Source of the DNA: Streptomyces hundungensis
GTDB taxonomy: Bacteria; Actinomycetota; Actinomycetes; Streptomycetales; Streptomycetaceae
Length of the DNA stretch: 64,000 nucleotides
Direction of reading: 5' to 3'
Assembly (NCBI RefSeq): GCF_003627815.1
Contig: NZ_CP032698.1
Location: 1,798,001-1,862,000 of the forward strand
This document shows, in pieces, positions 1 to 56,551 of this stretch. The notes under the pieces were generated by a model, which saw only the letters and a list, made by a program, of their open reading frames with translations, did not search any database and had not been told where the DNA came from. Made by a program: the position numbers and the translations under genes. Position 1 is the stretch's first letter. Every line of letters starts with the position of its first letter.

Positions 1-789
1 AAGTCCAACCAGCTCATGCCCAAGCCCAAGCACCTGAGCTGGGAGGAGGCGGCGGCCCCGGGCCTGGTCAACTCGACCGCCTACCGCCAGCTCGTCTCCC
101 GCAACGGCGCCGGCATGAAGCAGGGCGACAACGTCCTGATCTGGGGCGCCAGCGGCGGCCTCGGCTCGTACGCGACCCAGTTCGCGCTCGCGGGCGGCGC
201 CAACCCGATCTGTGTCGTCTCCAGCCCCGAGAAGGCCGACATCTGCCGTGCCATGGGCGCGGAGGCGGTCATCGACCGCAACGCCGAGGGCTACAAGTTC
301 TGGAAGGACGAGCGGACCCAGGACCCCAAGGAGTGGAAGCGCTTCGGCAAGCGCATCCGCGAGTTCACCGGCGGCGAGGACATCGACATCGTCTTCGAGC
401 ACCCGGGCCGCGAGACCTTCGGCGCGAGCGTGTACGTCACCCGCAAGGGCGGCACCATCACCACCTGCGCCTCGACCTCGGGCTACATGCACGAGTACGA
501 CAACCGCTACCTGTGGATGTCCCTGAAGCGCATCATCGGCTCGCACTTCGCCAACTACCGCGAGGCGTGGGAGGCCAACCGCCTCATCGCCAAGGGCAAG
601 ATCCACCCGACGCTCTCCAAGGTGTACTCCCTGGAGGACACCGGGCAGGCCGCCTACGACGTGCACCGCAACCTGCACCAGGGCAAGGTCGGCGTGCTCG
701 CCCTCTCCCCCCGCGAGGGTCTCGGCGTCAGCGACCCCGAGCTGCGCGAGAAGCACCTCGACGCCATCAACCGCTTCCGCAACGTCTGA
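1..789 (+). CDS. ccr: Crotonyl-CoA carboxylase/reductase, C-terminal part (5' end outside window)
   Basis: Partial: the frame is open from base 1, so 262 C-terminal residues of a protein usually near 445 are present. The visible part has the NADP-binding Rossmann fold (GASGGLGSYATQFAL) and the GSHFANYREAWEANRL segment, whose His corresponds to the CO2-site His of characterised Ccr enzymes. Ccr converts crotonyl-CoA, CO2 and NADPH to ethylmalonyl-CoA, the committed step of the ethylmalonyl-CoA pathway and a source of polyketide extender units. It lies 13 bp upstream of the mutase gene and reads the same way, consistent with an operon. Confidence 0.93.
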   Translation, partial: KSNQLMPKPKHLSWEEAAAPGLVNSTAYRQLVSRNGAGMKQGDNVLIWGASGGLGSYATQFALAGGANPICVVSSPEKADICRAMGAEAVIDRNAEGYKFWKDERTQDPKEWKRFGKRIREFTGGEDIDIVFEHPGRETFGASVYVTRKGGTITTCASTSGYMHEYDNRYLWMSLKRIIGSHFANYREAWEANRLIAKGKIHPTLSKVYSLEDTGQAAYDVHRNLHQGKVGVLALSPREGLGVSDPELREKHLDAINRFRNV

Positions 790-802
790 GCCGGGAAGTT
801 CC

Positions 803-2830
803 ATGACAGAGCGTCAGAAGGATCGACCGTGGCTCATGCGGACGTACGCGGGCCACTCGACGGCCGAGGCGTCCAACGAGCTGTACCGCAACAACCTGGC
901 CAAGGGGCAGACGGGTCTGTCGGTCGCGTTCGACCTTCCGACGCAGACCGGATACGACCCCGATCACATCCTCGCCCGCGGCGAGGTGGGCCGGGTCGGG
1001 GTCCCGGTCTCTCATCTCGGTGACATGCGCCGCCTGTTCCAGGACATCCCCCTGGAACAGATGAACACCTCGATGACGATCAACGCCACCGCGATGTGGC
1101 TGCTCGCCATGTACCAGGTGGTCGCCGAGGAGCAGGGCGCGGACATCACCAAGCTCCAGGGCACCACCCAGAACGACATCGTGAAGGAGTACCTCTCGCG
1201 CGGGACGCATGTCTTCCCGCCGGGTCCTTCGCTGCGGCTGACGACAGACATGATCTGTTACACCGTGAACAACATCCCCAAGTGGAACCCCATCAACATT
1301 TGCAGCTACCACCTGCAAGAGGCGGGAGCCACCCCGGTCCAGGAGATCGCGTACGCGATGTCCACCGCGATCGCCGTCCTGGACTCGGTGTTCGCCTCGG
1401 GCCAGATCCCCGACGACCGCAGGGGTGATGTGGTCGCCCGCATCTCCTTCTTCGTGAACGCGGGCGTCCGCTTCATCGAGGAGATGTGCAAGATGCGCGC
1501 CTTCGGCCGCATCTGGGACAAGATCACACGGGAGCGGTACGGGATCGAGGACGCCAAGCAGCGCCGCTTCCGCTACGGCGTCCAGGTCAACTCCCTGGGC
1601 CTGACCGAGGCGCAGCCGGAGAACAACGTCCAGCGGATCGTGCTGGAAATGCTGGCCGTCACGCTGTCCAAGGACGCTCGGGCCCGCGCGGTCCAACTCC
1701 CCGCCTGGAACGAGGCGTTGGGGCTGCCGCGTCCCTGGGACCAGCAGTGGTCGCTGCGCATCCAGCAGGTGCTGGCGCACGAGAGCGATCTGCTGGAGTA
1801 CGAGGACATCTTCGAGGGCTCGCACGTCATCGAGGCCAAGGTCGAGGCCCTGGTCGAGGAGTGCCTGGCCGAGATCGGGCGGATCGAGGAGATGGGCGGG
1901 GCGCTGGCCGCCGTCGAGTCGGGCTACCTCAAGTCGCAGCTCGTCTCCTCGCACGCCGAGCGCCGGGCGCGCATCGAGGCCGGCGAGGAGAAGATCGTCG
2001 GCGTCAACTGCTACGAGACGACCGAGCCGAGCCCGCTCACCGCGGACCTGGACGGCGCGATCATGACGGTGGACCCCGCCGTCGAGGCCCGCGTCGTCGC
2101 CGCGCTCAAGAACTGGCGCGACACCCGCTACCAGCCGCCGTTCAACCACCCGCGCCCGTGCAAGGCGCTGGAGAAGCTGAAGCAGGCCGCCGAGGGCACC
2201 GGCAACCTGATGGAGGCGACCTTGGAGTGTGTGCGCTCCGGGGTGACCACCGGCGAGTGGTCCCAGGCACTGCGCGAGGTGTTCGGCGAGTTCCGGGCGC
2301 CCACGGGTGTCTCCTCCGCGCCGGTCGCGGTCACCGCCGAGGAGGGCACGCCGCTGGCCGCCGTCCGCGAGAAGGTGGCGCGCACGGCCGAGGAGCTGGG
2401 CTCCGGACGGCTGCGCCTGCTGGTCGGCAAGCCGGGCCTGGACGGTCACTCCAACGGCGCCGAGCAGATCGCGGTGCGCGCGCGGGACGCCGGCTTCGAG
2501 GTGGTCTATCAGGGCATCCGGCTCACTCCGGAGCAGATCGTCAGCGCCGCCCTCGCCGAGGACGTGCACTGCGTGGGCCTGTCCATCCTGTCCGGCTCGC
2601 ACGCCGAACTCGTCCCGGACGTCCTGGTGCGGCTGCGCGAGGCGGGCGCGGCCGACATCCCGGTGATCGCCGGCGGGATCATCCCGCCCGCGGACGCCGC
2701 GGACCTGCGCGCGGCGGGCGTGGCCGCCGTTTTCACCCCTAAGGACTTCGGTATCACGGAGATCATCGGCCGTATCGTCGACGAGATCCGGAAAGCGAAC
2801 AAGCTCGACCCGTTGGAGGTCCCCGCATGA
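803..2830 (+). CDS. ecm: Ethylmalonyl-CoA mutase (coenzyme B12-dependent, MeaA-like)
   Basis: 675 residues. The N-terminal two thirds is a methylmalonyl-CoA-mutase-type TIM barrel (RTYAGHSTAEASNELYR, then FDLPTQTGYDPDH). The C-terminal cobalamin domain carries the B12 signature DGHSNG (Asp547, His549) followed by LSILSGSH and GGIIPP. It converts ethylmalonyl-CoA to methylsuccinyl-CoA. The fused single-chain form with substrate and B12 domains is typical of Ecm/MeaA rather than two-subunit methylmalonyl-CoA mutase, and the ccr and lyase neighbours support Ecm. GGGAAG lies about 6 bp before the ATG. The 3' end overlaps the next start by ATGA, so the two are probably translationally coupled. Confidence 0.93.
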   Translation: MTERQKDRPWLMRTYAGHSTAEASNELYRNNLAKGQTGLSVAFDLPTQTGYDPDHILARGEVGRVGVPVSHLGDMRRLFQDIPLEQMNTSMTINATAMWLLAMYQVVAEEQGADITKLQGTTQNDIVKEYLSRGTHVFPPGPSLRLTTDMICYTVNNIPKWNPINICSYHLQEAGATPVQEIAYAMSTAIAVLDSVFASGQIPDDRRGDVVARISFFVNAGVRFIEEMCKMRAFGRIWDKITRERYGIEDAKQRRFRYGVQVNSLGLTEAQPENNVQRIVLEMLAVTLSKDARARAVQLPAWNEALGLPRPWDQQWSLRIQQVLAHESDLLEYEDIFEGSHVIEAKVEALVEECLAEIGRIEEMGGALAAVESGYLKSQLVSSHAERRARIEAGEEKIVGVNCYETTEPSPLTADLDGAIMTVDPAVEARVVAALKNWRDTRYQPPFNHPRPCKALEKLKQAAEGTGNLMEATLECVRSGVTTGEWSQALREVFGEFRAPTGVSSAPVAVTAEEGTPLAAVREKVARTAEELGSGRLRLLVGKPGLDGHSNGAEQIAVRARDAGFEVVYQGIRLTPEQIVSAALAEDVHCVGLSILSGSHAELVPDVLVRLREAGAADIPVIAGGIIPPADAADLRAAGVAAVFTPKDFGITEIIGRIVDEIRKANKLDPLEVPA

Positions 2831-3801
2831 GCACCCCCGTCTCCCCCGTCAACCGGCTCCGCCCGCGTCGTTCCTGTCTCGCGGTCCCGGGTTCGAACCC
2901 CCGCTTCCTGGAGAAGGCCCAGGGCCTGCCGGCCGACCAGGTCTTCCTCGACCTGGAGGACGCCTGCGCGCCGCTGGCCAAGCCCGAGGCCCGGCACACC
3001 ATCGTCAAGTTCCTCAACGAGGGCGACTGGACGGGCAAGACGCGGGTCGTGCGGGTCAACGACTGGACGACCGAGTGGACGTACCGCGACGTCGTGACCG
3101 TGGTCGAGGGCGCCGGACAGAACCTCGACTGCATCATGCTGCCGAAGGTGCAGAGCGCCGACCAGGTCGTCGCCCTCGACCTGCTGCTCACCCAGATCGA
3201 GAAGACGATGGGCTTCGAGGTCGGCAAGATCGGCATCGAGGCGCAGATCGAGAACGCGCGCGGTCTGAACAACGTCAACGCGATCGCGGAGGCCTCGCCG
3301 CGCACCGAGACCATCATCTTCGGCCCGGCCGACTTCATGGCGTCGATCAACATGAAGTCCCTGGTCGTGGGCGAGCAGCCGCCCGGGTACGGCGCGGACG
3401 CGTACCACTACATCCTGATGAAGATCCTGATGGCGGCCCGCGCCAACGACCTCCAGGCGATCGACGGCCCCTACCTCCAGATCCGCAACGTGGACGGCTA
3501 CCGCGAGGTGGCGAAGCGGGCCGCAGCGCTCGGCTTCGACGGCAAGTGGGTGCTGCACCCGGGCCAGGTCGAGGCGTCGAACGAGATCTTCTCGCCGTCG
3601 CAGGAGGACTTCGACCACGCCGAGCTGATCCTGGACGCGTACGACTACTGCACCTCCGAGGCGGGCGGCAAGAAGGGCTCGGCGATGCTCGGCGACGAGA
3701 TGATCGACGAGGCCAGCCGCAAGATGGCGCTGGTCATCTCCGGCAAGGGGCGTGCGGCCGGTATGCAGCGCACGTCCAAGTTCGAGATCCCGGAGGCGTG
3801 A
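2827..3801 (+). CDS. HpcH/HpaI aldolase-family lyase, probable malyl-CoA/beta-methylmalyl-CoA lyase
   Basis: 324 residues of the CitE/malyl-CoA lyase fold. The conserved RSCLAVPGSNPRFLEKA start, the acidic LDLEDACAP strand, the metal/CoA-site Glu in GIEAQIENARGLNN and the IIFGPADF strand are all visible. In the ethylmalonyl-CoA pathway it splits beta-methylmalyl-CoA to glyoxylate and propionyl-CoA. Its start is inside the mutase stop (ATGA). A CitE-like lyase acting on other beta-hydroxyacyl-CoA thioesters cannot be excluded from sequence alone; operon position gives the assignment. Confidence 0.87.
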   Translation: MSTPVSPVNRLRPRRSCLAVPGSNPRFLEKAQGLPADQVFLDLEDACAPLAKPEARHTIVKFLNEGDWTGKTRVVRVNDWTTEWTYRDVVTVVEGAGQNLDCIMLPKVQSADQVVALDLLLTQIEKTMGFEVGKIGIEAQIENARGLNNVNAIAEASPRTETIIFGPADFMASINMKSLVVGEQPPGYGADAYHYILMKILMAARANDLQAIDGPYLQIRNVDGYREVAKRAAALGFDGKWVLHPGQVEASNEIFSPSQEDFDHAELILDAYDYCTSEAGGKKGSAMLGDEMIDEASRKMALVISGKGRAAGMQRTSKFEIPEA

Positions 3802-52836: not shown

Positions 52837-53190
52837 TTGCTGACGGGCGTGTGGCTGCGTGCGGCGGCGCGCGCCGAACAGGGCCTGGAGCTGACGGAGT
52901 TCGAGGACGGTCTTCTTGCCCCGTTCCTCGATGTGTTGGGCGAGCAGGACATCTTCGCACTGGGCCGGGTGTACCGGGAGCAAGTGGCCACGGCGGGATC
53001 GGCGGCCACGGTGCCGCGGTCAGTGAGCGAATGGAGCCTGAAGGACGGCTACACCGTCGAGGAATACGCCCGTTCGGCGGCCGAGGTCGGAGAGCGAGCG
53101 ATGGCTCAGCCCAACGTCGCGGTCATCGACCGGGCAGGACTACGGCACGAGCAGGAGCGCCGGGACAGTGACGAGTTCCTGGCCGCAGTT
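52837..53190 (+). pseudogene. Degraded open frame of unknown origin
   Basis: From TTG 52837 about 118 codons read like a real protein (GLELTEFEDGLLAPFLDVLG, SLKDGYTVEEYARSAAEVG). The frame then runs into a shadow of the next fragment. A single polypeptide with a recognisable end does not exist. Confidence 0.35.
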
Positions 53191-53911
53191 GGGCCACGGA
53201 CTGCGCCGCCTCCGCCGCGTCCTTCGCCGGCAAGCTCTACGTCGCCCACCGCAGCTACGCGGACGCCCGTCTCCATCTCGGCAACCACACCGACAACACC
53301 GCCCTCCAGCCCAGCAGCACCTGGCGCGCCACCACCGGCTCCGCGCTGACCCGCCACGACGAGGGTCTGGCGCTCGTCCATCGCGGCGGCTCCAGGCTGC
53401 GCTACGCCTTCGCGCAGCAGCCCACCAGCTGGGGTCGCGCGGCCGACATCCCCGGCACCGAAGACAGCCTCGACGAGCCCGCCCTCGCCCTCGCGACAAC
53501 GCCCCGCACCTGATGTACCTCACCGCGCCCGCCAGCGTTCTGCACATGCGCGCAGACGGCACGCTCCGCACCAGCGTCTACCAGGGCACCCAGAGTCAAA
53601 GCTTCAACCTCATCCACCAAGGCGGCGACGGCTCCACTGGAATCCGCAACAAGTACCACGACCGCGTCCTGAACCTGAGCCGCAGCGGCCAGGCCACCGC
53701 CGTCTTCTACAACGGCACCGCCGGCCAGAGCTTCACGATCCTCGACCAGCCCGACGGCTCCAAGCGCATCCGCAACCCGTATCACGACCTGTTCGTCGCC
53801 CTGTACCCCGACGGCCGGGTCATCGGCGAAGCCGAGAACCACTCGCCCTACCAGCGCCTGACCCTCGTCTGCCAGGGCGACGGGTCCCAGGGCATCCGCG
53901 TCCTCCCGTAA
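53172..53911 (+). pseudogene. Frameshifted lectin-like (propeller/beta-trefoil) gene
   Basis: Frame one (53172-53513) encodes FAGKLYVAHRSY, LALVHRGG and SLDEPALALA, with no start. Near 53490-53513 coding moves by one base to the frame ending at 53911: APHLMYLTAPASVLHMRADG, then three ~45-residue internal repeats with GIRNKYHDRVLNLSRSG and RIRNPYHDLFVALYPDG. The latter part has the look of a beta-trefoil or similar carbohydrate-binding module. One restored base would join both; without it only a 132-codon 3' piece from ATG 53513 could be made. Confidence 0.5.
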
Positions 53912-54267: not shown

Positions 54268-56049
54268 CTATTGCGATGTCGGGAAGGTCGGCGGGCCGAA
54301 TGCGACCGGGTCATGCCAGGGCTGACCACTAATCACCCAGGCCACGTTCAAACGGCCATTCCTGTCGACGGCCAGCGCCGTCAACTGACTGTCCGACTGC
54401 TTCGCCATCGTCACAGCAGCACCCGGCTGGAAACTCGCCGGTCCGAATGCGACCGGATCATGCCAGGGCTGACCACTGATGACCCAGGCCACGTTCAAAC
54501 GGCCATTCCTGTCCACCGCCAACGCCGTCAACTGACTGTCCGACTGCTTCGCCATCGTCACAGCAGCACCCGGCTGGAAACTCGCCGGTCCGAAAGCGAC
54601 CGGATCATGCCAGGGCTGACCACTAATCACCCAGGCCACGTTCAAACGGCCATTCCTGTCGACGGCCAGCGCCGTCAACTGACTGTCCGACTGCTTCGCC
54701 ATCGTCACAGCAACACCCGGCTGGAAACTCGCCGGTCCGAAAGCGACCGGATCATGCCAGGGCTGACCACTGATGACCCAGGCCACGTTCAAACGGCCAT
54801 TCCTGTCCACCGCCAACGCCGTCAACTGACTGTCCGACTGCTTCGCCATCGCCACAGCAGCACCCGGCTGGAAACTCGCCGGACCAAACGCAACCGGATC
54901 ATGCCAAGGCTGACCACTAATCACCCAGGCCACGTTCAAACGGCCATTCCTGTCCACCGCCAACGCCGTCAACTGACTGTCCGACTGCTTCGCCATCGCC
55001 ACAGCAGCACCCGGCTGGAAACTCGCCGGACCAAACGCAACCGGATCATGCCAAGGCTGACCACTAATCACCCAGGCCACGTTCAAACGGCCATTCCTGT
55101 CCACCGCCAACGCCGTCAACTGACTGTCCGACTGCTTCGCCATCGCCACAGCAGCACCCGGCTGGAAACTCGCCGGACCAAACGCAACCGGATCATGCCA
55201 AGGCTGACCACTAATCACCCAGGCCACGTTCAAACGGCCATTCCTGTCCACCGCCAACGCCGTCAACTGACTGTCCGACTGCTTCGCCATCGCCACACCG
55301 GCACCGGACATGGAGGACGGCTTGGGCGGTGGAACCGGGCCACCACCGCCGCCTGGGATCGCCTGCTGCCCGTCGTTGTTGCCTGCGGCGAGGTAGCGGC
55401 ACACCAGGATCCACCCTGTACTGCCCGCTACGGGCACGCCTTCCTTCACACCACACCCGATCGACGTGGTGAGCGATGCAGGGGACATCCACACCATCTG
55501 CGAGTAGTGACCCCAGGCATGGAAATTGGTTCCGGGCGCTGCATTGATGTTGACGGAGGCGTTGTTGTCAGCGTCGAACTTGGACTTTTCGGCCGGCCAA
55601 CTGAAGCTCACCGAGGGGTCCAACGCCATCATCGGACGTGCCGGGCCGGGGAAGGCATTGAAGAGGTTCTCCCCCTCGTCGCCGTTCGTGGCACGGCTGC
55701 TGTGGTGGAGTGCACCGCCCTGACTGGAGCCAGGATCATCGGCCCAAGCCTGCGCGTCACAGGCGAGCTTGGGGTTCCATGCCACAGAAGTCACCGAAAG
55801 GCTGGGGTTGTACTTCTTGACGGCCTCCTGGCGAGCGTCATTATGGGCTCGGACGATGGCTGCGGCATCAGCGGCGGTTATTGCCGACCCCGTGCCGGAT
55901 GGCGCGGTGGACGAGGCGCAAGTGGGAGCCTTCTCATCGGCGCCGGGAAGCTGCGCGCCGGGAAGCTGCGCGAAGGCGACCGGTGCCGGAATCACCATGA
56001 TCAGGCCACACATGATCGCTGCTGCTCTTGCAAGGAATTTCGGTCCCAT
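54268..56049 (-). CDS. Secreted CAP-domain protein with a predicted seven-bladed repeat propeller
   Basis: 593 residues. Signal peptide 1-27 (FLARAAAIMCGLIMVIPAPV then AFA). The CAP/SCP (PR-1-like) domain is at about 58-235, with AHNDARQ, HHSSRATNGDEGENLF, GHYSQMVWMSPA and a terminal CRYLAAGN; the two His and two Glu positions of the CAP cavity are plausible. A Gly/Pro linker follows. From residue 249 there are seven tandem 49-residue repeats (QLTALAVDRNGRLNVAWV, ISGQPWHDPVAFGP). Seven WH/DG-type beta-repeats fit a closed seven-bladed lectin-like propeller. ATG 56049 has GGAGG 6 bp upstream. Base composition and position beside decayed lectin genes suggest acquisition. Ligand and target are unknown. 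Confidence 0.9.
   Translation of the reverse strand: MGPKFLARAAAIMCGLIMVIPAPVAFAQLPGAQLPGADEKAPTCASSTAPSGTGSAITAADAAAIVRAHNDARQEAVKKYNPSLSVTSVAWNPKLACDAQAWADDPGSSQGGALHHSSRATNGDEGENLFNAFPGPARPMMALDPSVSFSWPAEKSKFDADNNASVNINAAPGTNFHAWGHYSQMVWMSPASLTTSIGCGVKEGVPVAGSTGWILVCRYLAAGNNDGQQAIPGGGGGPVPPPKPSSMSGAGVAMAKQSDSQLTALAVDRNGRLNVAWVISGQPWHDPVAFGPASFQPGAAVAMAKQSDSQLTALAVDRNGRLNVAWVISGQPWHDPVAFGPASFQPGAAVAMAKQSDSQLTALAVDRNGRLNVAWVISGQPWHDPVAFGPASFQPGAAVAMAKQSDSQLTALAVDRNGRLNVAWVISGQPWHDPVAFGPASFQPGVAVTMAKQSDSQLTALAVDRNGRLNVAWVISGQPWHDPVAFGPASFQPGAAVTMAKQSDSQLTALAVDRNGRLNVAWVISGQPWHDPVAFGPASFQPGAAVTMAKQSDSQLTALAVDRNGRLNVAWVISGQPWHDPVAFGPPTFPTSQ
54277..55305. repeat. Seven near-identical 147-bp tandem repeats inside the CAP gene
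   Basis: Exact 147-bp period, seven units. Copies 1-3 from the gene's 5' end are nearly identical (CCAAACGCAACCGG and CCAAGG variants). Copies 4-7 alternate CTGATGACC / CTAATCACC and CCACCGCCAAC / CGACGGCCAGC, as if a two-unit, 294-bp block had duplicated. Recent amplification is likely. Confidence 0.9.
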
Positions 56050-56551
56050 CGGAACCTCCGCCGATGTGGATGTCATTGATGGACCGATGAGGGGAACCCG
56101 TGCTTTGGCTCGCCCCGCACCGCCCCGACGTGTCTGACCTCGGCGGAGAGATCTCCGTTCGCCGAACATGAGTCATGGCGCGCCGGATGGTGAGACAACT
56201 GTCCCCCGTTCGGCGTATCCCGGCTCGCCCACCCCTCGCCGATTGCTGCATATGGGTGATATTTGCAGTCTGGGCTTGTAGTCATCACTGGAATTGGCTA
56301 TAGGGCGACCTGGTGGGAACGGCCGTAGCTTCTCTGCCGGTCGGCAACAGGCGTTGCGGCTGCTTTCGAGGCCATCGGCAGGTGGTCGACGGTTCATGCA
56401 CCGAGTACGGCCCGGCCTGCCGGGGCGTGACCCTGTCCGAACGGCTCGGGCGTCGCCCCCGCTCCAGCGGTCCTGGGCGCCCCGCCGGACCGGCCCCACC
56501 GGACCGGCCCCGACGCCCGAGCGGCCCGGAACGGCGGCCGCGTCGCCGCGG
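56050..56551. other. Non-coding, locally AT-rich region upstream of the CAP gene
   Basis: No gene supported. 56245-56315 is the most AT-rich stretch of the window, with TATGGGTGATATTTGCAG and GGCTATAGGG, and may hold the CAP promoter. Confidence 0.5.

Follow-up and report, generated by a model that had tools for sequence, protein, structure and literature searches.

What would a secreted bacterial CAP protein gain from a row of almost identical repeats behind its CAP domain? The question is raised by a gene on the minus strand of a 64,000-nucleotide stretch of Streptomyces hundungensis DNA (contig NZ_CP032698.1; hereafter the window, in whose positions all coordinates are given), which encodes a CAP domain followed by seven near-identical 49-residue units. 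Functions are known for only a few CAP proteins of bacteria. Our reading, which we hold with a probability of about 0.6, is that the product is a secreted CAP protein with a closed seven-bladed propeller of the BP39L/PLL group, a predicted multivalent glycan-binding module that would place the CAP domain on a glycan-coated surface. Computation establishes the domains, the seven blades, the fold match and the occurrence of differing propeller kinds behind one CAP domain in relatives.

Seven near-identical units behind a CAP domain

The architecture of a CAP domain plus seven repeats, proposed by a first-pass annotation of the window, is real and has the following parts:

54268..56049, minus strand: CAP plus seven-bladed propeller gene of the secreted type, 593 amino acids plus stop (open frame, translation)
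56055..56059, minus strand: Shine-Dalgarno-like GGAGG with a 5-base spacer to the ATG (direct reading of the sequence)
55969..56049, minus strand: probable signal peptide, residues 1-27, ending AFA (by eye on the translation)
55393..55854, minus strand: CAP domain PF00188, residues 66-219 (Pfam match)
55306..55392, minus strand: end of the CAP region and Gly/Pro-rich linker (translation)
54277..55305, minus strand: seven 147-base (49-residue) units, residues 249-591, predicted seven-bladed propeller (repeat search, register cut, profile, model, fold overlay)
55159..55305, minus strand: unit 1 (this and the following units by register cut)
55012..55158, minus strand: unit 2
54865..55011, minus strand: unit 3, identical in DNA to unit 2
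54718..54864, minus strand: unit 4
54571..54717, minus strand: unit 5
54424..54570, minus strand: unit 6
54277..54423, minus strand: unit 7, the most divergent, with a variant end

Tandem Repeats Finder (TRF) reports for the gene a period of 147, 6.9 copies and 96% matches, in agreement with the register cut, which yields exactly seven units of 49 residues. Any two units have between 129 and 147 of their 147 bases in common (0-18 differences), the proteins of units 2, 3 and 4 are identical, and the blades are 87-100% identical pairwise over the compared 46-residue core. A 7 x 49 array greatly exceeds what chance would produce; a chance or low-complexity repeat was rejected on the TRF result, the register cut and matches in structure databases. 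Further Pfam families that matched the array (haem dehydratase, NHL, Reg_prop, SH3 types and others) were rejected as sums over seven weak copies, because none has a single passing stretch, whereas CAP has one. The window assembly is one contig. Among the 49 codon columns of the array, 11 show synonymous variation only and 7 an amino-acid change, against an expectation that 23% of single changes to the array consensus would be synonymous; given this excess, the protein sequence of the repeats looks constrained.

The repeats are predicted to close into a lectin-like ring

In the model of the window protein, 28 computed blade strands form seven four-stranded blades in a closed ring, which overlays on BP39L (PDB 6gxr) over 340 residues with 1.2 Å, so that structure prediction bears out the closed propeller that had been anticipated. 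The sequence match to BP39L has an E-value of 3e-57, and BP39L is the closest solved fold, followed by the PLL/PHL lectins. The likeness to PLL blades, also part of the first-pass annotation, holds for the fold. The window protein, whose propeller we call type A, gave no match to PF03984 (DUF346), the family of the Photorhabdus PLL/PHL lectins, at E up to 1, and its ligand residues may differ from theirs. From BP39L of Burkholderia pseudomallei, whose solved chain of 370 residues is matched over 27-368 and so has little space for a second domain, the window protein differs in that its propeller comes after a CAP domain and its blades are near-identical.

The ligands of propellers include proteins as well as sugars, and the ring could be a scaffold or a protein-binding or anchoring platform instead of a lectin, perhaps holding the CAP domain on the producer's own wall or on a protein partner. 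The best-conserved blade residues (Q 97%, G 94%, W 99% and P 95% of weighted blades from 31 proteins) could indeed be structural. However, the solved folds that come closest, which lead by a wide Z margin, all bear the name of lectins and in many cases contain sugar, and three sequence-distinct repeat kinds with lectin-type matches, two of them modelled, stand behind the same CAP domain. A platform of this kind is thus unlikely, although of the alternatives it fares best.

The CAP domain retains its tetrad

The CAP assignment withstood scrutiny: PF00188 matches with an E-value of 4.5e-6 and 27.9 bits against a curated cut-off of 21.1, and a structure-sequence search matched CAP structures including Pry1p. 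By alignment to Pry1p, the tetrad of two His and two Glu, which is metal-binding in CAP proteins (PMC10189770), corresponds to H116, E127, E154 and H181. It is intact in 30 of 32 CAP rows, the window included; one or two of its residues are lost in P0035 and P0037, which have neither a propeller nor a second CAP domain. As the loss is confined to these two, the CAP cavity is probably in use. The window protein is thus like the CAP superfamily (PF00188; PR-1, Pry1p, Ag5) in its Pfam match and its tetrad, but is fused to a propeller and has no caveolin-binding motif OxOxxxxO, as defined in PMC10189770 and linked to sterol binding.

The CAP part might nevertheless be a classical sterol or lipid binder, a PR-1/Pry-like antifungal delivered by the lectin, as Pry1p is matched by the window protein and PR-1 by its relatives, the tetrad is conserved, and plant PR1 is reported to act on microbes and sterol-auxotroph oomycetes (PMC10189770, PMC5436867). 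A fatty-acid pocket has also been described for CAP proteins (PMC10189770). Absence of the caveolin-binding motif from all 32 CAP rows argues against sterol binding, and we consider this explanation improbable.

One CAP domain with several tails

The protein search with the window protein scored the best 7999 candidates by shared words, and the genome searches a limited number per genome (at most 7 for the CAP query). The CAP region found at least 23 proteins, 22 of them close (58-82% identity) and one remote (P0051), while a scan of genome contigs yielded seven loci, in S. sp. SID486 (two identical copies), S. sp. FH025, S. lavendulae, S. toxytricini, Embleya hyalina and S. sp. ASQP_92. Behind the CAP domain stands a BP39L-like propeller (kind A), a DUF346 propeller (kind B), FG-GAP_3 repeats (kind C; P0021 also matches Fungal_lectin PF07938), a second CAP domain (kind D) or, in P0035 and P0037, another tail (kind E). 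Kind D is represented by P0005, the member tested against Pfam, with two PF00188 stretches, and by P0007, P0008, P0010, P0019, L004 and L005, which have the look of a second, differing CAP domain. The window's own genome encodes a second CAP protein (L002, positions 1-3726 of that locus), a paralogue with seven DUF346-type units (PF03984, E 1.7e-56).

Twelve of the 15 complete CAP-propeller proteins have seven repeats. These comprise all four of kind A (window, P0002, P0003 and L011; P0002 is contained in L010 and was counted once), so that the search for CAP proteins with the same repeat, proposed in the annotation, returned three complete relatives with seven repeats each. In kind B, L002, L014, P0014, P0016, P0022 and P0025 have seven and P0028 five; in kind C, P0017 and P0021 have seven, P0018 six and P0012 five. 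Arrays at contig ends or in partial records (P0004, P0011, P0024, P0026, L006, L008, L009, L012, L013) were left out of the 15. Several draft assemblies (L006, L008, L009, L012, L013, L029) stop inside the near-identical array, and copy numbers from draft genomes are unreliable for this reason; all three genes in closed assemblies (window, its paralogue, S. lavendulae) have seven. P0012, P0028 and P0018 lie on contigs of 1.2 Mb, 297 kb and 110 kb, respectively. Their last units end in the usual way, so that the missing copies are interior; the short arrays represent either assembly collapse or real contraction.

The unit profile was run on 31 sequences, the window protein and 30 of the 49 search matches, the other 19 being CAP proteins with other tails. 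It found seven blades in P0001, P0002, P0003, P0015, P0027 (plus one stray weak match), P0031, P0040, P0041, P0045, P0046, P0048 and P0049, seven with the first one cut in P0034, a ragged seven in P0047 and fourteen in P0023. Six full blades with a piece at each end are present in P0006, P0009, P0013, P0020, P0029, P0032, P0033 and P0036, a pattern that looks like ring closure by strands from both chain ends, although the scores of the C-terminal pieces are as low as -1 to 10 bits and the N-terminal piece of P0020, P0032 and P0033 begins the record and may be a cut. Seven is the usual blade number among relatives.

At E 1e-15, the repeat region matched 12 of 392 genomes of the window's genus, its own included, with 7 blades in L026, L027, L028 and, weakly, L030 and L035, 6 in L031, 5 in L032 and L034, and fewer in L029 and L033 (broken or at a contig end); in a phylum sample, it matched 1 of 396 genomes, the window's own. 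One gene of the genus (L025/L036) encodes a long protein with 14 blades, forming two diverged seven-blade rings in tandem. P0006 also contains a GDSL esterase, and P0015 carries its seven BP39L-like blades within an astacin protease domain, ahead of the zinc-binding HExxH stretch.

Probable homogenisation of blades within lineages and exchange of tails

Within the window gene, blade DNA is on average 93.5% identical, as opposed to 70.3% towards FH025 and 67.2% towards S. lavendulae (all over the compared core), and blades in the same position are hardly closer than these averages (71.6% and 67.5%). In an unrooted tree of 21 type-A blades, a branch separates the blades of each protein from all others, with supports of 0.999 (window), 0.925 (S. 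lavendulae) and 0.702 (FH025). Blades two apart are closer than neighbours in FH025 (L010; 94.1 vs 89.9%) and S. lavendulae (L011; 89.3 vs 85.3%), which hints that these arrays were amplified in two-blade steps; the window gene, with 95.7% vs 95.8%, gives no such signal. In kind B, the final units of L002 and L014 form a group of their own (support 1.000) and same-position identity exceeds the between-gene average (83.9% vs 78.2%), so blade position is partly kept.

Highly repetitive propellers have been defined by blades with more than 60% pairwise identity (PMC9218822), a value that the window blades exceed over their core. They are like such propellers in their near-identical blades and in separate homogenisation in close relatives, and the pattern is similar to the separate amplification of WRAP propellers (PMC9218822). 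The main text of that paper names neither PLL nor BP39, and its VCBS example spans 3 to 9 blades, whereas the four complete type-A CAP proteins all have seven. Alternatively, the array might mostly reflect events at the level of DNA, as a tandem repeat that is unstable and drifts in copy number, so that seven would be partly chance and near-identity would have little functional meaning. This would fit the grouping of type-A units by protein, the identical DNA of units 2 and 3, the relatives with 5, 5 and 6 copies and the contigs that stop inside arrays, but is very unlikely given that three separately homogenised type-A arrays (the window's, FH025, S. lavendulae) all have seven, that variation within the window gene's array is mostly synonymous, and that the same number is seen again in three repeat kinds as well as in several diverged relatives, whose arrays should no longer be subject to slippage.

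On the CAP tree, the tail labels need 11 changes, compared to a possible minimum of 4. The approximately unbiased (AU) test of a single clade per tail kind gave p values of 0.0014 (C), 0.028 (B), 0.057 (A) and 0.22 (D). A single origin was accordingly rejected for C and B, for which tail exchange is thereby supported; kind A is borderline, and for D, where a single origin was not rejected, exchange is not shown. Taken by themselves, the branches with strong support require no more than one change in each kind.

Gene start and flanks

The start codon (ATG, 56047-56049) appears sound because GGAGG precedes it at a spacing of 5 bases; the frame is also open upstream to an ATG at 56169. The annotated signal peptide is visible as a pattern in residues 1-27, judged by eye. 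Promoter and terminator scans of the locus found nothing useful. A conserved gene neighbourhood was rejected, as at E 1e-8 the 11 related loci gave no match to any of seven flanking open reading frames, in a partial test for which L002 and L004-L006 offered short flanks only and L008, L009, L012 and L013 stop at or soon after the repeat start. Downstream of the CAP-propeller gene, 52838-53911 on the plus strand holds a lectin-like gene that seems to be disrupted and spread over three frames, between which third-position G+C shifts; its last part matches RicinB_lectin_2 (ricin-type), just under the cut-off.

Discussion

Several observations weigh against a glycan-targeted CAP effector. Multivalent ligand binding and the effector role of the CAP domain are predicted from relatives only. 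The type-A blades have two conserved Trp spaced seven residues apart, whereas the H-site pair of PLL3 is W251/W265 (PMC12203525), so that any sugar site need not be of the PLL type, and the first Trp is replaced by Ser in about 31% of weighted blades (31 proteins). The full-protein type-A model has a pTM (predicted template modelling score) of 0.61 with low confidence in the CAP part, which is largely below confident pLDDT (predicted local distance difference test) in both structure models, so that the alpha-beta-alpha CAP fold and the domain arrangement are tentative predictions. The blade number is also not invariant: copy numbers such as 3 or 12, which the first-pass annotation had regarded as telling against a propeller, occur in none of the 15 complete CAP-propeller proteins, but three (P0012, P0028, P0018) have 5, 5 and 6, and eight of the 31 profiled sequences do not fit seven (P0004, P0030, P0038, P0039, P0042, P0043, P0044, P0050), among them P0043 and P0038, which show the split ends but have about five and six blades. 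Finally, the architecture is rare, as the CAP query, with at most 7 candidates scored per genome, matched 4 of 392 genus genomes at E 1e-40, the window's own included, of which two (again with its own) have a propeller tail and two kind D.

On the reading that we prefer, the protein would be secreted with an N-terminal CAP domain, its metal-binding tetrad intact, as the working part, and a C-terminal closed seven-bladed propeller as a multivalent glycan-binding module. The sugar sites of PLL lie between blades (PMC12203525); near-identical blades might likewise create up to seven equivalent sites between adjacent blades, where repeated sugars could be bound in a PLL-like manner (PMC12203525), providing avidity and surface placement. 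The propeller would thereby concentrate the CAP domain on a glycan-coated surface, for which other microbes, fungi, soil invertebrates or the producer's own envelope are candidates. The near-identical blades may have arisen by recent amplification or homogenisation, separately per lineage, with the blade number held near seven because seven closes the ring.

That relatives carry the same CAP domain with different rings suggests that the CAP-propeller family is an exchangeable targeting device. More tentatively, a Streptomyces CAP effector may be re-aimed by swapping seven-bladed lectin cassettes of at least three kinds and re-amplifying their blades, such that glycan targets change fast while the effector stays constant, and one genome may carry two aims.

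Each half of the protein is known, and their pairing is apparently undescribed: in line with the first-pass annotation, we found no description of it in a search limited to open-access papers, although sequence databases already list proteins of this type as 'CAP domain-containing protein'. As natural propellers whose seven blades are near-identical, the family members are useful for learning how rings arise from one blade, and could perhaps serve as high-avidity binders. For a CAP domain with exchangeable lectin-like propellers, the ligand of the propeller would tell where the CAP domain works.
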